This document shows, one piece after another, positions 35,322 through 58,686 of a DNA stretch of 62,334 nucleotides. Within the stretch, counting starts at the first letter, position 1. Every line of letters starts with the position of its first letter. A model generated the notes under the pieces. The model did no database searches. It was given only the letters and a program-made list of their open reading frames with translations, and was not told the origin of the DNA. The translations under genes and the position numbers were made by a program. The DNA comes from Bacteroidota bacterium. Its GTDB lineage: Bacteria > Bacteroidota > Bacteroidia > Bacteroidales > JABHKC01. The stretch is from NCBI GenBank assembly GCA_018692315.1, contig JABHKC010000016.1:1-62334 (forward strand), written 5' to 3'.

Positions 35322-35720
35322 GGGGCTGATTTGGCTTTGACAGCAAGATGAATTGATTTGTAAGCATGTCGAGCAACGCAACTAACTCGTTAAACTTTTT
35401 GCAACTTTTTAAACGGCGAAAATAACTACGCTCTCGCAGCATAATCTTGCCAGGCACGATTAGCTAAATTCCTCGCTCAAGGAGTGAGGAACGAGATGTC
35501 TCGCAAACAATGCTTCCCGGTGGTTGTTTGCACATGGGGCACCATTCACATTGGGATAGTTTGGGTAGATTTTTCGATGCCCTTGCGAAATTCAGAAAAT
35601 AAGGAAACAATAGATTGTTCTTTTTCAGTTGTTTCTCGAAAAAATTTTAAAGGACTAAACATGTAGAAAGCATTTTGGTTTCTTGTTTGGACCAGGGTTC
35701 GACTCCCTGCAGCTCCACCT
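35322..35720 (+). ncRNA. ssrA: Transfer-messenger RNA (tmRNA)
   Basis: The 5' end ggggctgattTGGCTTTGACA is recognisable in its first 20 bases as the tmRNA tRNA-like half. The 3' end has the T-arm ggttcgactccc (within 35696-35708) and the acceptor strand agctcc (35711-35716), pairing with ggggct at 35322. The CCA is not fully encoded (ACCT). The tag reading frame at 35415-35444 encodes GENNYALAA and a TAA stop, matching Bacteroidota tags. With SmpB (not in this window) it rescues stalled ribosomes and marks the product for proteolysis. It is a one-piece gene and not a permuted one. Confidence 0.97.
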
Positions 35721-44250: not shown

Positions 44251-45510
44251 GTGGATATTTTTGAAAAACTGAAAGCAAAACAAACTCCATTAGGAAAATA
44301 TCAGACGGTTGGCGATGGATATTTTATGTTTCCAAAACTTGAGGGAGAAATAAAACCTCGAATGAGTTTCAGAGGACGAGAAGTTTTGACATGGAGCTTA
44401 AATAATTACATTGGATTAGCAAACGATCCTGAAGTAAGAAAAGCAGATGAAGACGGTGCAAAAGAATGGGGACTGGCTTACCCAATGGGAGCAAGAATCA
44501 TGTCGGGGCAGACAGAAATGCACGAAGAACTCGAAAACAGATTAGCACAGTTTGTTGGAAAAGAAAAAGCATATCTTTTGAATTATGGATATCAAGGAAT
44601 GGTTTCGATTATTGATTCATTAGTCGATAGGAACGATGTAATTGTTTACGATTCAGAATCACATGCCTGTATATTAGACGGATTAAGGCTACATCTCGGA
44701 AAACGATTTGTTTATCCTCACAACGATTTGAAAAATCTTGATAAAGAACTGGAGCGAGCTACAAAAATTACTGAAAAAACCAAAGGTGGAATATTAATTA
44801 TTACAGAAGGAGTATTCGGTATGTCTGGCGATTTAGGTAAGCTAAATGAGATAAACAAACTCAAAGAAAAATACGATTTTAGAATGTTGGTTGATGATGC
44901 CCATGGTTTTGGTACAATGGGAAATACTGGTGCCGGTACTGGCGAGCACTTAAATGTGCAGGACGGTGTTGATATTTACTTCGGAACATTTGCAAAATCG
45001 ATGGCTGGAATTGGTGCATTTGTTGCTTCCGATAAGGCAATCGTTGATATGTTACGTTTTAGCATGAGATCGCAAATTTTTGCTAAATCGCTTCCTATGC
45101 CTATGGTAGTTGGTGCTTTAAAGCGTTTGGAACTTTTACAAAACAAACCAGAATTACGAAATAAATTGTGGGATGTTGTAAATGCACTTCAAAATGGTTT
45201 ACGAGAAAAAGGTTTTAATATTGGAAATACAGAATCTCCTGTAACACCTGTTTTCTTTTCTGGAAACGTTGCACAAGGAACAAATGTTTTGATTGATTTA
45301 CGAGAGAACTATAGTATATTTTGCTCAATTGTTGTTTATCCGGTTGTCCCGAAAGGAGTTATTATGCTTCGTCTTATTCCAACTGCCGAACATACTTTAG
45401 AAGATGTAGAATATACAATAAATGCTTTTGCTGAAATCAAGGAAAAACTTGAGAAAGGACACTACAATGCCGAGGAAGTTACCGGAATAGAAGAAATTTC
45501 AAAAGGTTAA
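44251..45510 (+). CDS. Alpha-oxoamine synthase, likely cysteate fatty acyltransferase
   Basis: A 419-residue PLP enzyme of the KBL/BioF/SPT family, which joins an amino acid to an acyl thioester with loss of CO2. Visible are 'VYDSESHACILDG' (PLP-stacking His), 'MLVDDAHGFGTMG' (Asp binding the pyridine N) and the Schiff-base lysine K249 in 'FGTFAKSMAGIGAF'. The start is GTG 44251; no upstream ATG is available. It differs clearly from glycine C-acetyltransferase at 56.6 kb. The 'GKYQTVGDGYFMFPKLEGE' N-terminus and the sulfur-assimilation neighbours favour the branch that condenses cysteate with a fatty acyl group to 3-ketocapnine, the first sulfonolipid step. Serine palmitoyltransferase is the main alternative. 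Confidence 0.65.
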   Translation: MDIFEKLKAKQTPLGKYQTVGDGYFMFPKLEGEIKPRMSFRGREVLTWSLNNYIGLANDPEVRKADEDGAKEWGLAYPMGARIMSGQTEMHEELENRLAQFVGKEKAYLLNYGYQGMVSIIDSLVDRNDVIVYDSESHACILDGLRLHLGKRFVYPHNDLKNLDKELERATKITEKTKGGILIITEGVFGMSGDLGKLNEINKLKEKYDFRMLVDDAHGFGTMGNTGAGTGEHLNVQDGVDIYFGTFAKSMAGIGAFVASDKAIVDMLRFSMRSQIFAKSLPMPMVVGALKRLELLQNKPELRNKLWDVVNALQNGLREKGFNIGNTESPVTPVFFSGNVAQGTNVLIDLRENYSIFCSIVVYPVVPKGVIMLRLIPTAEHTLEDVEYTINAFAEIKEKLEKGHYNAEEVTGIEEISKG

Positions 45511-45550
45511 ACTACAGACATTAGAATTTTATCATCTTAATTTCTAAAAC

Positions 45551-46258
45551 ATGGATTTGAAGAGTTTAAATAATTATTTCAAAAATGAAAAACCGGAAAG
45601 TTTATTAGAATGGTGCATTTCTGAACTTTATCCGAATGTTGCAATGACAACCTCATTTCAGATTTCAGGACTGGTTATTATTCATATGATAAAAAAAATT
45701 ATGCCTGATTTTCCAATTGTGTTTATCGACACTTCATACCATTTTCCTGAAACAATTGAATATAAAAACAAATTGGTTGAAGAATGGGATTTAAATTTAG
45801 TAACAGTAAACTCAAATTCAGTAAATGGCAAAAATGAAATAAATCACGATAAAGAACTCTATAAAACGGATACTGAGCTATGTTGCAAGCTAAATAAAAT
45901 TGATCCTCAGAAAAAATATATGAAAGAATCTGGGATTATAAATTGGATTTCCGGCTTGCGAAAAGATCAGGGTGAAACCCGGGCAAGTCATGATATGTTT
46001 ATGAAAGACAAGTGCGGATATGTCAGAATTCATCCATTAGTTTATTGGACATGGAACGATGTGTGGGAATATATTAGAATAAATAAAATTCCTTACAATA
46101 TTCTATACGATTTTGGATACACATCAATAGGCTGTTCGCATTGCACAAGCCCAAATACAATTGGCTCGGGAGAGAGAAATGGCAGATGGAAAAATTCTAC
46201 AAAAAAAGAATGTGGATTGCATATCGAACTTCTTGAAAACAATTCAAAAATCAGTTAG
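45551..46258 (+). CDS. cysH: APS/PAPS reductase (assimilatory, Fe-S type)
   Basis: A 235-residue reductase of the CysH family, converting (phospho)adenylyl sulfate to sulfite. The PAPS-reductase fold is seen in 'VAMTTSFQISGLVIIHM', 'PIVFIDTSYHFPETIEY' and 'WISGLRKDQGETRA'. The iron-sulfur ligands C111-C112 and C195-x2-C198 are present, and the catalytic C221 sits in 'ECGLH'. The CC/CxxC pair is the signature of APS-using enzymes. It follows the alpha-oxoamine synthase by 40 nt, so the two are likely one transcript. The sulfite it makes could feed cysteate synthesis in this locus, general cysteine synthesis, or both. Confidence 0.9.
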   Translation: MDLKSLNNYFKNEKPESLLEWCISELYPNVAMTTSFQISGLVIIHMIKKIMPDFPIVFIDTSYHFPETIEYKNKLVEEWDLNLVTVNSNSVNGKNEINHDKELYKTDTELCCKLNKIDPQKKYMKESGIINWISGLRKDQGETRASHDMFMKDKCGYVRIHPLVYWTWNDVWEYIRINKIPYNILYDFGYTSIGCSHCTSPNTIGSGERNGRWKNSTKKECGLHIELLENNSKIS

Positions 46259-46294
46259 ACAACATAAATTGAATTGAATATATAGTTCATTATG

Positions 46295-46353
46295 AAAAGC
46301 GAAATTTGAAATATTTTCAAAAAATATATGAATCTGTTGCAAATTTCGCTTTT
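46295..46353 (+). terminator. Inverted repeat, terminator-like, after cysH
   Basis: aaaagcgaaatttg (46295-46308) is the exact reverse complement of caaatttcgctttt (46340-46353). The 14-bp stem has a long 31-nt loop and ends in TTTT. It may stop or attenuate transcription between cysH and the small-protein/transporter genes. Confidence 0.55.
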
Positions 46354-46413
46354 ACTATTTTTAGAAAGAACTAATAAGTTATTTATTTTGAATGATAATT
46401 ATTGAAATAAAAA

Positions 46414-46608
46414 ATGGAAAATAATCACGATAAACAAAAGAGTACATTATCGTTAATGGATAATGAACAAATGGTAGATGTATTTGATAATCCGGAACCA
46501 TGGTCGAAAATTGAAACTAAATTGGTTGTATATTCATTCATTGCTGCAATAATATCGCTTGTTGTATTTGGCTTTTTTGTGAACAAGTATTTACTAAATG
46601 CCATATAA
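46414..46608 (+). CDS. Small single-pass membrane protein
   Basis: A 64-residue protein. The N-terminal ~40 residues are polar and acidic ('MDNEQMVDVFDNPEPWSKIETK'-type region, key part 'VFDNPEPWSKIETK'). One membrane helix spans about 41-60. Its last 11 nt overlap the start of the next small gene, and the exporter homologue follows. I do not recognise the family. The overlap and the position between a sulfate-reduction enzyme and a sulfate/sulfite exporter homologue suggest it is an accessory of that transporter. Confidence 0.65.
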   Translation: MENNHDKQKSTLSLMDNEQMVDVFDNPEPWSKIETKLVVYSFIAAIISLVVFGFFVNKYLLNAI

Positions 46609-46855
46609 AATAGAACTCAAGCTAACTATGAATGGAGCTGATTGGCAAGCCGAAAACAATGAAATAAATGTATCTGCTCCAACACTTCCAGAATTGGATA
46701 CAAAAATCGGCAAAGTCTTGAAAAATAGCAATATATATAAAAATGTGAAATTGTTTCATATATATATGTATTTCGACCAGGAAACAATCCCAGAGTGGAT
46801 ACGACAGTATTCAAATCATTATTTTAATCGAATATTGGAAATAGAAAATAATTGA
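46598..46855 (+). CDS. Small uncharacterised protein next to the exporter
   Basis: An 85-residue cytoplasmic protein starting inside the previous gene (11-nt overlap). It has an alternating strand-helix-strand pattern ('YKIELKLTMNGADWQAEN', 'LPELDTKIGKVLKN', 'FHIYMYFDQETIPEWIRQY') and no cysteines or known motifs. It ends 19 nt before the exporter gene. It could be a small soluble subunit or regulator of the transporter; no function can be assigned from sequence. Confidence 0.65.
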   Translation: MPYKIELKLTMNGADWQAENNEINVSAPTLPELDTKIGKVLKNSNIYKNVKLFHIYMYFDQETIPEWIRQYSNHYFNRILEIENN

Positions 46856-46874
46856 AAAAATAATTATCAAAAAT

Positions 46875-48350
46875 ATGGAAAAAAGACGCTGGTATTCCGG
46901 AATTACAAGCACAGAAGATTGGTGGTCAGTTTGGCTTGCTTTCTTTTTTATTTTTCTTGGTTTGTGTTCATTATTTGGAGTCGATTTGGTAGGATGGATT
47001 GCATATCCTTCAAAATGGTCTGGCTTTGGAGAAAATAATGGACTTTTTTCAGCTATCAAACCACTTGGGAAATCATATCAGGCTATTGGTTTTTTAGGAA
47101 GTATCCTCTTTACTTATGTGGCATTTTCTATTCCATTGACCATTGCCGCACGATTTATGAAATGGGATGTTAAACAATTCTTCTTTGGTTGGACAATAAT
47201 TTTTGCCTTTACATATTTGATTTGGATAATTGGTCATCATGCGTTTTTTGCTGCAAATACCTTAAATAAAGAGAAATACGATATGTCGATGGTGCTATCG
47301 CTTGGTGGTGGTGCTTCTTTTATAATTGCTTTAATTGTTGGATTAATAATTGGCAATTTTTTTAAGAAATTTGCAAAATATCTTAGCGTAGCTGCAAAAC
47401 CAGAACTTTTCATTAAAATTGCGATAGTTTTTTTAGGAGTAAAAGTTGGATATCTTGCCTTCAAAGCATCAGGATTTATTTTCGATTTAGCAATTGCCGG
47501 TGCTGCCGCAACTATAGTTGCCTATCTGATTTTTTGGCCCGGGACTTATCTAATAGCCCGAAAGGTTTTCAAACTACCCCGTAAAACATCTGCTGTAATT
47601 TCTTCCGGAATTTCAATTTGTGGTGTTTCGGCAGCAGTTGCCACAGCTGGGGCTGTACGTGCAAAACCGCTGATTCCTATTATGGTTTCTGCTTTAATAG
47701 TTGTTTATGCAGTTATAGAATTAGTAATTATTCCACCATTGTTCACCGCAACAATGATTGAAGAGCCAGTGGTTGCCGGTGCAGCAATGGGCATGGCAAT
47801 AAAAACAGATGGAGCCGATGCCGCTGCAGGAGCAATCATGGACGAACTCATGCGTAACAAAAAATTGGAAATGGATGGAACTGCATGGGAGGAAGGATTT
47901 ATTACAACAAGTGCAATAATGACAAAAATCTGGATAGATATGTTCATTGGAATATGGGCATTTGTTCTTGCAATGATTTGGGTTTATAAAATAGACCGAA
48001 CACCTGGTGAAAAAGTTCATGCTTCTGAAATTTGGCATCGTTTCCCAAAATTTGTAATAGGATATTTTCTTTCTTGGTTCATATATCTGGGAATTTTGTT
48101 TATAGATAAAGAACTTGCCGATCCAGCAAAAATTGGAGCTGTTCCAGTAGAAAAAGGTATGCGAAAATTGTTTTTTATGCTGACTTTTTTTAGTATTGGA
48201 GTAAATACTGATTTTAAGAAACTTGCTGAGGCACGATTCGGAAAAATTATCTTTCTATATTTAATTGCTTTGTTTGTTTTTATCTTACCTGTTGCAATTG
48301 GTATTGCCTGGATTTTTCATCATGGAATGAAAGTGCCTGTAATTCAGTAA
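46875..48350 (+). CDS. YeiH-type putative sulfate/sulfite exporter
   Basis: A 491-residue polytopic protein of the family annotated as putative sulfate exporters (Cons_hypoth698, COG2855). Hallmarks are 'IKIAIVFLGVKVGYLAFKASG', 'VISSGISICGVSAAVATAGAV', and the C-terminal 'FFSIGVNTDFKKLAEA' segment. It is longer than E. coli YeiH because of an N-terminal ~120-residue extension with extra membrane helices ('WWSVWLAFFFIFLGLCSLFG'). Direct biochemical proof of the substrate is thin for this family. Here, next to cysH and a cysteate-synthase candidate, sulfite, sulfate or a sulfonate is a reasonable substrate. The two small genes upstream are probably co-transcribed. Confidence 0.85.
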   Translation: MEKRRWYSGITSTEDWWSVWLAFFFIFLGLCSLFGVDLVGWIAYPSKWSGFGENNGLFSAIKPLGKSYQAIGFLGSILFTYVAFSIPLTIAARFMKWDVKQFFFGWTIIFAFTYLIWIIGHHAFFAANTLNKEKYDMSMVLSLGGGASFIIALIVGLIIGNFFKKFAKYLSVAAKPELFIKIAIVFLGVKVGYLAFKASGFIFDLAIAGAAATIVAYLIFWPGTYLIARKVFKLPRKTSAVISSGISICGVSAAVATAGAVRAKPLIPIMVSALIVVYAVIELVIIPPLFTATMIEEPVVAGAAMGMAIKTDGADAAAGAIMDELMRNKKLEMDGTAWEEGFITTSAIMTKIWIDMFIGIWAFVLAMIWVYKIDRTPGEKVHASEIWHRFPKFVIGYFLSWFIYLGILFIDKELADPAKIGAVPVEKGMRKLFFMLTFFSIGVNTDFKKLAEARFGKIIFLYLIALFVFILPVAIGIAWIFHHGMKVPVIQ

Positions 48351-48403
48351 AGTGAAAAGTAAGTTAAAAAATAAATTTTATATTATTATTAAAACTTTTG
48401 ATG

Positions 48404-48429
48404 TGTGATTTTTACTGAAGAAAATCACA
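48404..48429. other. Hairpin between exporter and PLP-enzyme genes
   Basis: tgtgatttt (48404-48412) pairs perfectly with aaaatcaca (48421-48429) around an 8-nt loop. The downstream T-run is poor, so I cannot say whether it terminates, attenuates or only stabilises the transcript. Confidence 0.4.
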
Positions 48430-48478
48430 TTTCAAAAATGTCGAAAAAATTAATAAATCCCTTCAAAAATAAGTAAGT

Positions 48479-49804
48479 ATGTCAAAAGTAGATGGAAAAT
48501 TTCATTTAAAATGTAAAAAATGTAATCATATAATAAACGATTTTGCGGAATGGTTTTCTTTCAAACAAAAATGTCCCGAATGTGAAAATAAATGGGTAGA
48601 TGTTGAATACTCAAGAAATGTTCAAGATGTAGTTGAAAAAATAAAACAAAACGAAAAAAAACCTGAAAGTTTTTGGCAATATTTCGATTTTCTGCCATTA
48701 ATGGAAAAGAGCAATATTATATCGCAAGGCGAAGGGGTAATCCCAGTTGATAGATGGGATTTTTTCGAAGAGTTTGCGAAACAAAAATACAATATCAATT
48801 GCAAAGTTTTTGCCTACAGAAACGATTTGAACGGAGGAACCGGAACATTTAAAGATGTTGCAGCAGCTATGGCAGCCAGTGTTCTGAAAGAAAATGGTGT
48901 TAAGCAATATGCTGTTGCAAGTACCGGAAATATTGCAACAGCATTTTCGCACTATCTTGCACTTGCCGGAATTTCTCTTTCGGTTTTCATTCCGAGCGAT
49001 GCCCTAAAAGCTCATGAATCAGAAATAAGTAGCTACGGACAACGAGTATTTAGAGTTAATGGAGATTATGCTAAAGCTAAGAAAATTGCAGCAGAATATT
49101 CCGAAAAATATGACATTTTACTTTCCGGCGGAAACACTGATCCTATGCGTGTTGAGGCAAAAAAAACTATGGTTTTCGAATGGTTGAGGATTTTAGGAGA
49201 ATTGCCAACAGTTTATATTCAGGCTCTAAGTGGCGGAACTGGGCCAATTGCCATTGACAAGGCATGTGAGGATATAAAAGATCTTGGATTGTTTTCTGAG
49301 CTACCACGCTTTATAATGGTGCAGCCCGACAAATGCGACCCAATGACTGCCGGCTGGGAAAAGGCAAAAGCAAATAATTTTCCTGATGGATGGGAAAACG
49401 ATTATCCAATTTTAGAAAACCCTGTTACAGCTATTCCAACTTTAGCGACCGGCAATCCTGCAACTTATCCAATTATCAGCCAATTAGTTAGAAAAAGTAA
49501 TGGAGAAATTATTTCATTTTCAGAGGATGATGCCATTGATGTAGCTCGTCTCATAGCTTTCGAAACAAATAATCAAATAGGACCGGCATCGACCATTGCT
49601 GTGGGTGGATTTTTCAATTCTCTTAAAAAAGGGCTCATTAAAGATAATGATTTAGTAATGATAAATGTCGGTGAAGGAGTGAAAAGAGCTCCAGAATTTA
49701 TGGAACAAATGATTTATACTACAAAAACCATTGACTCTATCAACGACTGTGAACCTTCTGATAGAATGAAACATAGGAATAAACTTTGGGAGAAGTTTGT
49801 TTAG
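48479..49804 (+). CDS. Threonine-synthase-like PLP enzyme, candidate cysteate synthase
   Basis: A 441-residue fold-type II PLP enzyme. An N-terminal zinc ribbon uses C12-x2-C15 and C32-x2-C35 ('LKCKKCNH', 'KCPECENKW'). The Schiff-base lysine is K125 in 'NGGTGTFKDVAAAMAAS'. The substrate-phosphate loop 'VASTGNIATAFSHYLALAG' and 'ALSGGTGPIAIDKA' follow. The overall match is to threonine synthase and to the threonine-synthase paralogue cysteate synthase, which joins O-phosphoserine and sulfite. No homoserine kinase or homoserine dehydrogenase is adjacent, whereas cysH, a sulfate exporter homologue and an alpha-oxoamine synthase are. I therefore favour cysteate synthase. Threonine synthase remains possible. 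Confidence 0.6.
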   Translation: MSKVDGKFHLKCKKCNHIINDFAEWFSFKQKCPECENKWVDVEYSRNVQDVVEKIKQNEKKPESFWQYFDFLPLMEKSNIISQGEGVIPVDRWDFFEEFAKQKYNINCKVFAYRNDLNGGTGTFKDVAAAMAASVLKENGVKQYAVASTGNIATAFSHYLALAGISLSVFIPSDALKAHESEISSYGQRVFRVNGDYAKAKKIAAEYSEKYDILLSGGNTDPMRVEAKKTMVFEWLRILGELPTVYIQALSGGTGPIAIDKACEDIKDLGLFSELPRFIMVQPDKCDPMTAGWEKAKANNFPDGWENDYPILENPVTAIPTLATGNPATYPIISQLVRKSNGEIISFSEDDAIDVARLIAFETNNQIGPASTIAVGGFFNSLKKGLIKDNDLVMINVGEGVKRAPEFMEQMIYTTKTIDSINDCEPSDRMKHRNKLWEKFV

Positions 49805-53346: not shown

Positions 53347-53676
53347 TCAATCAATTTCAAATAGTATTTTTAGTTTGTCAGTCATTATTTTATGATAAGA
53401 ATCTGGCAATTTCCCTAATTCTCTTTTTATCAGGTTTGTTGGTATCGTAACAATGCGGTGAAGCTTTATTGTGGAATTTGTCTTTAAGCCCGTATTTTTA
53501 ATATTTGTTATTCTTATATCCGTTTTTCCTGTTGTTTTAGAAATTTGGCTTGTAATAAAAGCTATTACGACATGATTATATTTATCTATTTTATCTGTTA
53601 AACAAATTGCAGGTCTAACTTTCAAATCTGAAAAATTATCAAATGGAAACGGAACTAACACTATTTTATACTTCAT
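53347..53676 (-). CDS. MazF/PemK-family toxin
   Basis: A 109-residue protein starting at ATG 53676 ('MKYKIVLVPFPFDNFSDLKVRPAICLTD', key part 'VLVPFPFDNFSDLKVRPAIC'). The VPFPF-D...K-x-RPAI beginning, the 'VVIAFITSQIS' strand and 'LHRIVTIPTNLIKRELGKL' are the MazF/PemK endoribonuclease pattern. It overlaps its antitoxin by 11 nt. The family cleaves mRNA at specific short sites. Nothing in the frame looks damaged. Confidence 0.88.
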   Translation of the reverse strand: MKYKIVLVPFPFDNFSDLKVRPAICLTDKIDKYNHVVIAFITSQISKTTGKTDIRITNIKNTGLKTNSTIKLHRIVTIPTNLIKRELGKLPDSYHKIMTDKLKILFEID

Positions 53677-53923
53677 GGCCAAAAGATTTTCCGTCTGAAA
53701 GTGAATAGATATCTTCTTCCGGTGCATTTAAAAAGCTAAATGCAGAATTATTTGAGATTGATTTTAACCATAATTTTTCATCAATTTCATCAGATTTATC
53801 ATTCTCTTCGGGAAGTAAAATTAATACTCGCACGCTTTTCTTAAGAAATTGCTTATTAATAGTTTTGTCAATTTTCAAGATATTATTATTATCAATAATT
53901 CCCGTTGTTTCTACTACTTTCAT
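53666..53923 (-). CDS. MazF-associated antitoxin (DUF2281-like)
   Basis: An 85-residue protein, start ATG 53923 ('MKVVETTGIIDNNNILKIDK'). The N-terminal half is a short beta/DNA-binding type segment. The C-terminal 'LWLKSISNNSAFSFL' and 'APEEDIYSLSDGKSF' (E-D-I-Y-S/T-L-x-D-G-K-x-F) match small antitoxins found directly upstream of PemK/MazF toxins. Overlap with the toxin (11 nt) supports co-translation. It lies 11 nt after the broken nuclease gene, probably on the same transcript. Confidence 0.8.
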   Translation of the reverse strand: MKVVETTGIIDNNNILKIDKTINKQFLKKSVRVLILLPEENDKSDEIDEKLWLKSISNNSAFSFLNAPEEDIYSLSDGKSFGHEV

Positions 53924-53934
53924 AATATTTTGAT

Positions 53935-55465
53935 TTACTGTATTCTCATTTTGCAAAATTCGTCAATGTGGACTTTATTTTCCTCTGCAAATTTAAAAAG
54001 ATGAGTTGCAATTTCATCTGCAAATTTTTCTCTTATATCTATTAGAATTTTCATTAAAGTTTCAATTTTGTTGAAATGATCTTGATAGTTTTCCCAGCAT
54101 ATCCAATGCTTACTATTCAGATTCTTATCCATAAATAAATTCTTCTTTTTAATATTCTCATCTATATCTTTTTGGTCAAAATTACCGTTTTGTGTATGTA
54201 TCCAAATACCAAAAAGAAGATTCTTAGATAATCCTTCATAGCTTGCTGAAATGTCATAAGAACCAGAAGTGAAAATATGAAGTTTTGAATAGGTGTCAAA
54301 TACATCATCTAATCGAATTGTCCATTCGAGTTTTTTTTCTTCGATTTTGCTTTCAATCTTAATCTTTACTGCTTTCCAAAAATCAGTAATAAGCTTCTTT
54401 TTTATCTCCTCCATTTGTTCAGAAACCTCAAAAGCAGCTTTGAAATTTTCACTTTTTGTAATAAAATTGAATATTGCTTCTTTGTATTCGCTCATTTGTT
54501 TTCTTTTTTAGAATGTTTCAATAATTTCAAGATACTGGTTTACAGCCACTTTCACTTTTTCAGGCTTAATTAAAGGTAATGAATTAATTAGCATTTCACG
54601 AATATGATTTCGATAGCTCATCAATTTCAGTGTTCCGTCTTCATCAAGTTGCTTAAATATTTCATTCTCAATTGAAATTTCTGATGGTTTTTTGCCATCT
54701 TTTGTTAAATAAATGAGTAAGATTTTAGTGTTGTCATTTTTAGTTTTCAAATAATCGTAATATCGTTCGAGTTGTCGTGGTTGGTCTTCCGCATCAATTT
54801 TGTTTTCTATACATATTAAAAATGGATTTTCCGCTCCATAGTGTTCAATCAAAATATCTAATCTGCCAAAAGCAGTTGTTTTTTCTGTATTTAGTGCCTC
54901 TAAGAAAACAGTTCAAAATTAAAAACATCTCTTTTTGCGATATTTCTATTTTTTTCATTTGTTTAATACAAAAGCATTTACTGCATGAAAGAAAATAGAA
55001 ATCTCATCAAAAATTTATTATTTTATAAAAATTGCCTGTTTTCTTAGAACCACTATTTACAAAAAAATAATCCTTGTCAATTTCTTTAAGAATTTTTTTG
55101 CAATCATTTTCTTTTTCAAAAAGTTGTGAAATGAAATTCCGAAAAAACAAATCGCCCTGACAATGAGAACCGTTTATATCCAACAAATTTGCAAGAAAAG
55201 GCGAATGAGTTATTTCTTCATTAGTTTTAAGGTTTCGAAGAATTGAAAAAATATTATAGTCGAAAGCTAAATGTTTAGAAAGCCTAACATAGATAGATTT
55301 TATTGCATTTAAACCTGAGAACAAATTTCCGTAGCGCTGTCGGTCATTCTCAATTTTGAGTTTTTCGACACTCTTGTGATGTTTTTCAAAACGCTCAAGA
55401 AAATATTTTATGTCAGAAAATGAGACTGGTTCTACTATATTTATATTTCGATTTGCATTTGTCAT
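53935..55465 (-). pseudogene. PD-(D/E)XK nuclease-family gene broken into three frames
   Basis: Reading leftward, an N-terminal piece (55465-55007) has 'NEEITHSPFLANLLDINGSH' and stops at 55007. A middle piece (open from about 54920, using frame 54852) reads 'LNTEKTTAFGRLDILI' and 'FLICIENKIDAEDQPRQLERYYDYL', i.e. GR-x-D and the E-x-K of the catalytic core, and stops with TAA at 54508-54510. A C-terminal piece continues in the same frame from 54507 ('MSEYKEAIFNFITKS') to 53935. The order and content match one ~480-residue PDDEXK_4-type protein. It is interrupted by stops and a frame change at about 54900-55010 and by a nonsense codon at 54508. It is probably inactive. Confidence 0.8.
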
Positions 55466-56621: not shown

Positions 56622-57821
56622 TTAGATTGCTCCTAATTTTTTTCCAACTTTTTTGAATTTTTCAATAGCAAATTCAATATTTTCTGTCGAATGAGCAGCA
56701 GTAATTTGAACTCTAATTCGCGATTTTCCTTTCGGAACTATAGGATAATAAAATCCAATTACATAGATTCCTTCTTCTAAAAGTTCGTCGGCAAATTCTT
56801 GCGAAAGTCTGGCATCGTTTGGCAGATGCCCAAACAAAATTGGTGTAATTGGATGTGTTCCCGGAACAATTGTGAATCCGGCATTTTCCATTCCTTGTCT
56901 GAAAAGCTTTGTGTTTTCAGCGAGTTTGTCGCGCAGTGCCGTAGTTTCGTTCAGAATATTCAGAACTTCGACAGTTGCCCCGGCAATTGCAGGTGCTAAA
57001 GAGTTTGAAAATAAATATGGTCGTGAGCGTTGTCGCAAAAAGTCGATTATTTCCTTTTTCCCGGAAACGCAACCTCCTGAAGCACCTCCAAGAGCTTTTC
57101 CAAAAGTGGTGGTTATGATATCAACTCGTCCCATCGAATTGCAAAATTCTGCACTTCCTCGACCGGTTTTGCCAACAAATCCGCTTGCATGCGAATCGTC
57201 AACCAAAACTAAAGCTTCATATTTATCTGCCAAATCGCAAATCTGGTCAATAGAAGCAATAATTCCATCCATCGAAAAAACGCCATCGGTAACTATCATT
57301 TTGAAGCGACAATCTTTTGCCTCCTTAAGTTTTGCTTCAAGATCAGACATATCATTGTTTTTGTATCTGAATCGTTGAGCTTTACAAAGTCGAATGCCAT
57401 CAATTATTGAAGCATGGTTGAGCTCGTCTGAAATGATTGCAGATTTTTCGTCTAATAATGGTTCAAAAACTCCACCGTTGGCATCGAATGCCGATGAATA
57501 AAGGATAGTGTCTTCTGTGCCCAAAAATTCAGTCAATTTGTTTTCGAGCTCTTTATGAACTTCTTGAGTTCCGCAAATAAATCGAACAGAGGCCATTCCA
57601 AATCCGAATTTGAAAAAGTTGTAATTTGCGGCAGCCATCACTCTGGGTTCCGAAGAAAGTCCCAAATAATTGTTTGAACAAAAATTCAGAACATCAAGTC
57701 CTTTCACTGTTTTTATTTGAACTCCCTGAGGAGTTGTCAGGATTCTTTCATTTTTATATAAGCCGTCTTCCTTAATGTTTTCAAGCTCTTGCTGAAGGTA
57801 ATTTTTAAATTTTCCGTACAT
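56622..57821 (-). CDS. kbl: Glycine C-acetyltransferase (2-amino-3-ketobutyrate CoA ligase)
   Basis: A 399-residue alpha-oxoamine synthase. Motifs are 'NFCSNNYLGLSSEPRV', 'ELNHASIIDGIRLCKA', 'VLVDDSHASGFVGKTGRGS' and the PLP lysine in 'TTTFGKALGGASGG'; 'YYPIVPKGKSRIRVQ' lies near the C-terminus. The DSHASGF form of the Asp motif is typical of Kbl, which cleaves 2-amino-3-ketobutyrate with CoA to glycine and acetyl-CoA. I start it at ATG 57821 (MYGKFKNYL). The open frame upstream to 58004 has no family similarity and would run over the -7 element. It serves as an in-window contrast to the divergent synthase at 44.3 kb. Confidence 0.93.
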   Translation of the reverse strand: MYGKFKNYLQQELENIKEDGLYKNERILTTPQGVQIKTVKGLDVLNFCSNNYLGLSSEPRVMAAANYNFFKFGFGMASVRFICGTQEVHKELENKLTEFLGTEDTILYSSAFDANGGVFEPLLDEKSAIISDELNHASIIDGIRLCKAQRFRYKNNDMSDLEAKLKEAKDCRFKMIVTDGVFSMDGIIASIDQICDLADKYEALVLVDDSHASGFVGKTGRGSAEFCNSMGRVDIITTTFGKALGGASGGCVSGKKEIIDFLRQRSRPYLFSNSLAPAIAGATVEVLNILNETTALRDKLAENTKLFRQGMENAGFTIVPGTHPITPILFGHLPNDARLSQEFADELLEEGIYVIGFYYPIVPKGKSRIRVQITAAHSTENIEFAIEKFKKVGKKLGAI

Positions 57822-57845
57822 ATTATTACTGTTTAACTTTTTTTG

Positions 57846-57853
57846 CAAAAGTA
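57846..57853 (-). promoter_or_regulatory. -7 element (TACTTTTG, minus strand) of kbl
   Basis: The plus-strand CAAAAGTA reads TACTTTTG leftward, 24 nt before the kbl ATG. It supports the start at 57821. The -33 is not clear. Confidence 0.5.
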
Positions 57854-57990
57854 AGCAAATTGAAAATAAAATGTTTGATAATAATGTTTTAATGAATATA
57901 TAATTTGAAATGCCGGAAATAAAAGTTTTAACTATTTGTTTCAAATTGAGTAATTTTGAAATTTTTAATTTTGTACAAAAAAATGCAGTG

Positions 57991-58686
57991 ATGAGAGAAA
58001 ACATTAGGGTTTTATTAGTTGAAGACGATGAAAATTTGGGTTCTCTGTTATGTGATTATTTGAAAGCCAAAGGATTCCTAACAGAACTTTTTACCGATGG
58101 AGAAAAAGGATATAAAGCCTTTATGAAAAATCACTACGATATTTGCGTACTTGACGTGATGATGCCAAAGAAAGACGGATATAGTCTATCAAATGACATT
58201 CGTTCGGTAAATAGTCAAATTCCTATAATTTTTTTAACAGCGAAATCTCTTAAAGAGGATGTCTTAAAAGGTTTTAGTGTGGGAGCAGACGATTATATTA
58301 AAAAACCTTTCAATATGGAAGAACTTTTAGTTAGAATTCAGGCACTTCTGAAGAGAGTTGAAAAATCGGAACCTGAATCGAATAATAATGTTTTTCAGAT
58401 TGGGAAATTCACTTTCGACTCAAATATTCGACAATTGACGATAGATGGCGAAACAAGCAAACTCACCACTAAAGAATCCGGACTGCTTAAATTGCTGTGT
58501 AGCAAAACTAATGAGATTCTTGAAAGAAATTATGCTTTGCAAACAATATGGAAAGATGATACATATTTTAATGCCAGAAGTATGGATGTATATATCACCA
58601 AACTGCGAAAGCATTTGAAGCAAGATCCTTCAATTGAAATTATTAATATTCATGGAGAAGGGTATAAATTGTTAGTACATAAATAA
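57991..58686 (+). CDS. OmpR-family response regulator
   Basis: A 231-residue regulator. The receiver domain (about 5-120) has acidic residues E11/D12/D13, phospho-acceptor D55 ('CVLDVMMPKKDGY'), 'FLTAKS' and 'YIKKPFN'. The winged-helix DNA-binding domain (about 135-230) has 'LTTKESGLLKLLCSKTNEIL' and 'YITKLRKHLKQDPSIEIINIHGEGYKL' type features (key part 'SMDVYITKLRKHL'). I start it at ATG 57991; an upstream in-frame ATG (57910) adds 27 residues without family similarity. Two TAATTTTG sequences (57951 and 57966) are possible -7 elements. No kinase is adjacent; the kinase at 17.5 kb is a candidate. Confidence 0.92.
   Translation: MRENIRVLLVEDDENLGSLLCDYLKAKGFLTELFTDGEKGYKAFMKNHYDICVLDVMMPKKDGYSLSNDIRSVNSQIPIIFLTAKSLKEDVLKGFSVGADDYIKKPFNMEELLVRIQALLKRVEKSEPESNNNVFQIGKFTFDSNIRQLTIDGETSKLTTKESGLLKLLCSKTNEILERNYALQTIWKDDTYFNARSMDVYITKLRKHLKQDPSIEIINIHGEGYKLLVHK

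Follow-up and report, generated by a model that had tools for sequence, protein, structure and literature searches.

A candidate locus for the front half of sulfonolipid synthesis, starting from sulfate, in a Bacteroidales genome

The window analysed here is contig JABHKC010000016.1 of assembly GCA_018692315.1, a member of the Bacteroidales: 62,334 nucleotides, contig 16 of a 4.98 Mb genome that is in 248 contigs and 99.6% complete. Six reading frames occupy positions 44251-49804, all on the plus strand, and we propose, with a probability of about 0.74, that this locus represents the front half of the sulfonolipid (capnine) pathway starting from sulfate. In the proposed scheme sulfate would be activated by CysC, CysD and CysN, which are encoded on another contig (C191), and the CysH-type reductase of the window would convert the activated sulfate to sulfite. 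A pyridoxal phosphate (PLP) enzyme of the locus would then make cysteate from sulfite and O-phospho-L-serine, and a cysteate C-fatty acyltransferase (CFAT) would join cysteate to an acyl thioester to give 3-ketocapnine, in the first committed lipid step. Reduction of 3-ketocapnine to capnine would probably fall to a short-chain reductase on contig C188, and a cassette of three further genes within the locus may relieve excess sulfite.

Sulfonolipids are described as outer-membrane lipids of Bacteroidota (PMC9304779) and are reported to affect gliding and inflammation (PMC11211663). Cysteate is described as being made through CapA in Capnocytophaga and through an archaeal-type enzyme instead in Alistipes and Odoribacter (PMC10191378). 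The accessions of CapA and CapB are given as consecutive (PMC12927429), so clustering of a cysteate synthase gene with a CFAT gene is already known. Searches of the open-licence literature for sulfonolipid together with sulfite and cysteate found nothing, and among the open-licence papers listed by related searches neither the lineage of PLP enzymes described below nor a CysH without sulfite reductase as a supply for sulfonolipids was seen.

Results

The synthase of the locus belongs with cysteate fatty acyltransferases

The first gene of the locus (44251-45510, plus strand; 419 amino acids, Aminotran_1_2 family) encodes an alpha-oxoamine synthase that matched PDB entry 7u7h (SulA) with 611 bits, its residues 2-406 being aligned, and entry 28eh, another cysteate C-fatty acyltransferase, with 595 bits; its match to the serine palmitoyltransferase (SPT) 3a2b reached 254 bits. 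The PDB title of 7u7h is unspecific, and we take it to be the structure that Radka et al. (2022) reported for SulA of Alistipes finegoldii, because Lys251 and other residues fit. With the chain aligned by hand to SulA residue numbering, anchored on Lys251, residues N51, H138, K249, K279 and R374 of the window protein correspond to SulA Asn53, His140, Lys251, Lys281 and Arg376. Lys281 is described as the residue by which SulA is told apart from Spt, which has alanine there (Radka et al., 2022), and 3a2b indeed carries alanine at the K279 position. All five active-site residues, K279 included, were conserved in every one of 80 homologues picked by similarity from named genomes. A 34-row tree placed the window synthase within a 24-row CFAT clade (support 100/100), apart from seven SPT-side rows and three KBL rows, and among named genomes its closest CFAT matches come from Bacteroidota, mostly Bacteroidales. 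By these sequence comparisons the protein is almost certainly a CFAT of the SulA/CapB type, which upholds a preliminary description of the window, where it had been proposed as a sulfonolipid synthase rather than an SPT and a tree with CFAT, SPT and Kbl had been suggested. Identity as an SPT was rejected on the 254 versus 611 bits and on the position outside the SPT rows.

Further members of the superfamily were encountered (G, L and C numbers denote sampled genomes of the order, individual loci or proteins, and contigs, respectively). Genome G107 encodes a second CFAT-like protein (L233, C8:53041-54270) that is 44% identical and lies inside the CFAT clade on a long branch with 28eh; its substrate could be another amino acid. 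The window itself holds a second alpha-oxoamine synthase (56622-58004, minus strand), a glycine C-acetyltransferase by TIGR01822 (625 bits, cut-off 493), and a further glycine C-acetyltransferase of this genome is on C198. Around the CFAT genes of the named genomes (80 loci, L006-L085), look-alikes of BamD, CoaBC, RecN and FabI, recognized by eye, recur in 44-58 of the 80 loci; these families were not looked for in the window.

The PLP enzyme forms a clade of its own

The last gene of the locus (48479-49804, plus strand; 441 amino acids, PALP family) encodes a threonine-synthase-like PLP enzyme that scored below the curated cut-offs of the threonine synthase and cysteate synthase models: 180.3 bits on PRK08197 (cut-off 303) and 85.7 on TIGR00260 (cut-off 167.1), both threonine synthase models, and 129.9 on the cysteate synthase model TIGR03844 (cut-off 324.9). 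The CapA model NF053679, which is present in the library, was not among the 15 families matched at E 0.001. CapA belongs to the CysK/CBS branch, since its model gives two cysteine synthases 226 and 253 bits, and Liu and colleagues are said to have placed it there in 2022; a PDB search with the window enzyme at E 0.01 returned no protein of that branch. A model of its structure built from two sequences was too poor for use (predicted local distance difference test score, pLDDT, 55.5). One other ThrC-like gene is present in the genome, on C56.

We constructed an unrooted tree of 44 rows, in which the window enzyme and 28 relatives formed their own group (93/95; 29 rows, hereafter type B), while 12 threonine synthase rows, including the C56 protein, formed a separate group (99/95). 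PDB entry 9k3c ('Cysteate synthase') grouped with two proteins of the order (100/100; archaeal-type, hereafter type A), both of which exceed the TIGR03844 cut-off (442.6 and 477.1 bits); L227 matched 9k3c with 567 bits. Being unrooted, the tree is silent on whether type B lies closer to ThrC or to type A, and its rows cover the type B genomes of the order (30 in all) except G055 and G127, and include L009 from a named genome. In the alignment, 11 of 12 threonine synthase rows show an arginine two residues past the PLP lysine; none of the 29 type B rows does. In favour of a cysteate synthase, type B has G218, Q248, A249 and N396 in common with type A, residues that are scarce among threonine synthases. 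The cut-offs, the missing CapA match and the tree thus led us to reject membership of TIGR03844, of the CapA model and of the threonine synthase group, and the enzyme falls in no curated family. The preliminary description had seen in it a threonine synthase paralogue that makes cysteate. The first half of that view is sustained by its separation from the threonine synthases in the tree; for the second half, the enzyme stands outside both curated cysteate synthase families and apart from 9k3c. Because neither of those families takes it in, its activity has to be read from gene context, and on that basis it is probably a cysteate synthase.

Type B genes are linked to CFAT and to sulfate genes

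We surveyed 149 genomes of the order, the present one included, with 119 family labels among them; all association tests ignore relatedness. With presence set at 440 bits or more for type B, at least 290 for type A and at least 540 for CFAT, and at E up to 1e-20 for CysH, type B was found in 30 genomes, type A in 37, CFAT in 108 and CysH in 95. Types A and B never occurred together (0/149, p = 8.5e-5), and within the 108 CFAT-positive genomes there were 26 with B, 35 with A and none with both (p = 7e-6). Of the 26 genomes that have both type B and CFAT, 11 have the two gene starts no more than 10 kb apart, compared with 0 of 35 for type A and CFAT; the corresponding counts for CysH are 7 of 23 with type B and 0 of 25 with type A. 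Counting either CFAT or a sulfate gene as partner, linkage is seen for 16 of the 30 type B genes, on stretches of unequal length, many of which end at contig ends.

The arrangements themselves recur. The order CFAT-CysH-PLP gene is found again in G144 and G069, both of which also have a short-chain reductase gene adjoining CFAT. CysH directly follows CFAT in the window as well as in G144, G069 and G056 (in the last as CFAT-CysH-symporter-PLP gene). A run of CysH-CysD-CysN-DASS-like symporter-CysQ-PLP gene lies near CFAT in G103, where the run also holds another reductase (28% identical), and in G062; the symporters score under the DASS model cut-off. G022 has CysH-CysD-CysN-PLP gene, and other sulfate genes stand beside the PLP gene in G016, G010 and G044. 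As a separate observation, on contig C10 of G142 (L288) an archaeal-type cysteate synthase gene and a NIR_SIR gene are some 4 kb apart, with a cysteine synthase gene also near, so that two possible users of sulfite are adjacent.

CysH and the fate of sulfite

The second gene of the locus (45551-46258, plus strand; 235 amino acids, PAPS_reduct family) scored above the cut-offs of PRK02090 (223 bits, cut-off 154) and TIGR00434 (215, cut-off 165). On the models specific for 3'-phosphoadenosine 5'-phosphosulfate (PAPS; 193/254) and adenosine 5'-phosphosulfate (APS; 166/235) it stayed below both cut-offs, and the choice between APS and PAPS as substrate is therefore left undecided. Assimilatory CysH proteins are marked by a CC...CxxC motif and ECG, and the window protein has CC at 111-112, CxxC at 195-198 and ECG at 220. 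Scores and motifs together place it in assimilatory CysH, the reductase with iron-sulfur cysteines that had been described earlier. Its identity is 51-54% with the CysH proteins encoded at the equivalent position in G144 and G069, and at most 40% with the other matches listed. Genes for sulfate activation are also present: CysC, CysD and CysN lie in a row on C191, each above its curated cut-off. The genome has four PAPS_reduct matches, the strong ones being the window CysH and CysD.

To reach cysteine, sulfite from CysH would have to be reduced further. Searches with NIR_SIR (PF01077), which we take to be the mark of siroheme sulfite reductases, gave no match in this 99.6% complete genome, and the same search was positive in 11 of 14 control genomes. 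With no siroheme sulfite reductase detected here, the sulfite made by CysH lacks an evident route to cysteine. Across the order NIR_SIR was matched in 11 of the 149 genomes, all of which carry CysH, leaving 84 of the 95 CysH-positive genomes without it. CysH tracks CFAT: it is present in 83 of 108 CFAT-positive and 12 of 41 CFAT-negative genomes (p = 1.3e-7), and in 76 of 100 versus 7 of 31 after 18 genomes less than 90% complete are set aside (p = 1.9e-7). Nine CysH-positive genomes with neither CFAT nor NIR_SIR are exceptions to a use of sulfite for cysteate. These data suggest that many of these bacteria reduce sulfate to sulfite only, for cysteate. The role of sulfite source that had been assigned to the window CysH agrees with how the genes are arranged in relatives and with the lack of a sulfite reductase match, and we consider it likely.

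Observations against the proposed pathway and alternative explanations

A number of observations weigh against the proposed pathway. By score, the best curated model for type B is a threonine synthase model, PRK08197, and failure to reach the threonine synthase cut-offs is weak evidence, because the C56 protein misses them too (202/303 on PRK08197, 160.4/167.1 on TIGR00260). Of 33 listed positions that set type B apart (conserved in no fewer than 28 of its 29 rows and in at most 2 of 12 threonine synthase rows), only four, G218, Q248, A249 and N396, carry an identical residue in each of the three type A rows. Type B is not significantly associated with CFAT (26/30 versus 82/119, p = 0.067) or with CysH (23/30 versus 72/119, p = 0.14), and four type B genomes are without CFAT (G022, G036, G084 and G126, of which G084 is 77% and G126 82% complete). 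Neither A nor B was found in 47 of the 108 CFAT-positive genomes, where CapA was not searched for; CysH is present in 41 of these 47. CFAT and CysH lie within 10 kb in 7 of the 83 genomes with both, and at the 80 CFAT loci from named genomes, with flanks of up to 10 kb and many shorter, type B is adjacent in one (L009) and CysH in none. There are 25 CFAT-positive genomes without CysH and 12 CysH-positive genomes without CFAT. Finally, G006, which is without NIR_SIR, has a cysteine synthase gene between CysD and CysH; the product is CysK (473 bits, cut-off 351; 226/600 on the CapA model), and this arrangement fits a cysteine role of CysH better.

Part of this evidence would be accounted for if the PLP enzyme were an additional threonine synthase, or some other enzyme of amino acids whose place beside CFAT is fortuitous, with cysteate coming from a CapA-type enzyme elsewhere in the genome or from outside. 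The PRK08197 match, the C56 scores and the four type B carriers lacking CFAT are compatible with such an explanation, as is the fact that the CapA model was not searched across this genome. The separate tree groups, the lower TIGR00260 score of type B (85.7 bits, versus 160.4 for the C56 protein), the distribution of the arginine after the PLP lysine and the repeated linkage of type B with CFAT and sulfate genes all argue against it, however, and we regard it as improbable. It is also conceivable that CysH serves ordinary cysteine synthesis through an unrecognized sulfite reductase and that its place beside CFAT is incidental, given that CysH is widespread in the order (95 of 149 genomes, 12 of them without CFAT) and that, in the 20 CysH neighbourhoods analysed from the 41 CysH- and CFAT-positive genomes with neither A nor B, CFAT was near in one and a cysteine synthase gene in one (that of G006); the absence of a NIR_SIR match from this genome and from 138 of 149 in the order, the tracking of CFAT by CysH and their adjacency in four genomes make this explanation less probable still. 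The G006 gene was the sole PALP neighbour in those 20 neighbourhoods, which yielded no cysteate synthase.

A candidate for the next step lies on another contig

The preliminary description had noted that the later ketoreductase is outside the window, and a candidate was indeed found elsewhere. The short-chain reductase that adjoins CFAT in G144 has a relative in the present genome at C188:5705-6496 (57% identity, 318 bits; the next best match has 86), and relatives of at least 260 bits lie by CFAT or PLP genes in G069, G081 and G119 as well. Since it scores 125.7/400 on the ketodihydrosphingosine reductase model and passes just an unspecific model of short-chain dehydrogenases/reductases, we treat the C188 protein only as a candidate for the 3-ketocapnine reductase. 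In C. gleum and A. finegoldii, 3-ketocapnine reductases are reported to lie apart from cfat and Cys rather than in a cluster with them (mLife 2024).

A three-gene cassette lies between CysH and the PLP enzyme

Between the second and the last gene of the locus are a 64-amino-acid frame (46414-46608), which has one hydrophobic stretch (residues 33-64) and no family match, a DUF5395 protein of 85 amino acids (46598-46855; PF17373, 93.8 bits) and a long PF03601 membrane protein, related to YeiH, of 491 amino acids with many hydrophobic stretches (46875-48350), all on the plus strand. The first two frames overlap by 11 bases, and the 64-amino-acid frame is likely to be a real gene. A terminator-like hairpin lies on either side of the cassette, one in the gap after cysH (46295-46353, plus strand; 25-nucleotide arms 84% complementary, -20.4 kcal/mol, z -3.84) and one 3' of the PF03601 gene (48396-48437, plus strand; z -5.00). 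These strong hairpins make three transcription units likelier than one, and the six genes are probably not a single unit. No match to a Bacteroidota promoter pattern was found within the locus. A six-gene operon conserved in relatives was rejected, as the cassette is bounded by the hairpins and is missing in G144 and G069, where CysH and PLP genes are direct neighbours; from this adjacency we consider that the cassette was probably inserted here. The earlier finding of six genes on one strand is borne out by the open reading frames and family scores, and chance reading frames can be excluded from the best identities in other genomes (CFAT 77%, CysH 54%, PLP enzyme 70%) and from the family scores of the PF03601 and DUF5395 proteins. 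The view that all of them form a shared group is only partly supported, in that CFAT, CysH and the PLP gene recur together in relatives and the cassette genes are no part of that module.

The membrane protein had been described as a YeiH-type exporter. It belongs to PF03601 (76.6 bits, cut-off 24.5), but on the YeiH model TIGR00698 it scored 34 bits against a cut-off of 232.6. PF03601 relatives occur in 22 of the 149 genomes, the present one included, the best of the others at 35% identity; 11 of these loci, viewed with short flanks, contained no CFAT, CysH or PLP gene. Among plasmids it matched four weak records, the best of which is unannotated there. Among 395 sampled genomes of the phylum, the present one alone gave a DUF5395 match, and the family was found neither in plasmids nor in the open-licence literature; its structure model was too poor (pLDDT 59.4). 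An exporter role for the PF03601 protein is tentative, at rather less than even odds, and relief of excess sulfite by the cassette is a guess from its position between the gene that would make sulfite and the gene that would use it. There is close to an even chance that the cassette is instead an unrelated insertion with another substrate: it is flanked by hairpins, it is absent between cysH and plp in two relatives, the other 394 sampled genomes gave no DUF5395 match, and the membrane protein is far under the YeiH cut-off. The GC content of the cassette is not distinctive.

The locus as a whole is flanked by a TonB-dependent receptor gene upstream and a convergent gene downstream. Elsewhere in the window, two overlapping small frames (53347-53956, minus strand) resemble, by eye, a PemK/MazF-type toxin-antitoxin pair, and a tmRNA with the tag GENNYALAA is at 35322-35719 (plus strand).

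Discussion

Taken together, we lean somewhat toward the view that type B constitutes a third lineage of cysteate synthase, beside the archaeal-type enzyme and CapA, and that sulfate assimilation in most CysH-positive genomes of the order ends at sulfite and serves sulfonolipids rather than cysteine. If so, the type B lineage would account for the cysteate step in 26 of the 108 sampled CFAT genomes of the order. The reading of CysH would change as well, 'assimilatory sulfate reduction to sulfide' being wrong wherever sulfite reductase is absent. On this view, many relatives would channel the sulfate they import into a membrane lipid rather than into cysteine.

The proteins of the locus resemble known systems to different degrees. 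The PF03601 protein shares its domain with the sulfite resistance protein YeiH, and differs in its TIGR00698 score, in its length of 491 amino acids and in its company of DUF5395 and a 64-amino-acid frame. The CFAT resembles SulA of A. finegoldii and CapB of Capnocytophaga ochracea in its 611-bit match and in its active-site residues, the diagnostic lysine among them; in the window its neighbours are CysH and an unassigned PLP enzyme, and its activity is a prediction. Type B has in common with ThrC the PALP fold family, N-terminal CxxC pairs and PRK08197 as best model, whereas it forms a separate tree group, lacks the arginine two residues after the PLP lysine and coexists with a ThrC-like gene elsewhere in the genome. 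With the archaeal-type cysteate synthase (TIGR03844, 9k3c) it would share the reaction, along with the PALP family and residues G218, Q248, A249 and N396; the two differ in clade, in score (130 versus 324.9 bits) and in motif, type B having FKD and then one of V, A, K, I or L where TIGR03844 has FKET, and type B genes are linked to CFAT, unlike those of TIGR03844. CapA of Capnocytophaga, which makes cysteate from phosphoserine, differs in that its model NF053679 scores two cysteine synthases at 226 and 253 bits and does not match the window enzyme at E 0.001, yet the two are alike in the proposed reaction and in the clustering of their genes with that of the acyltransferase.

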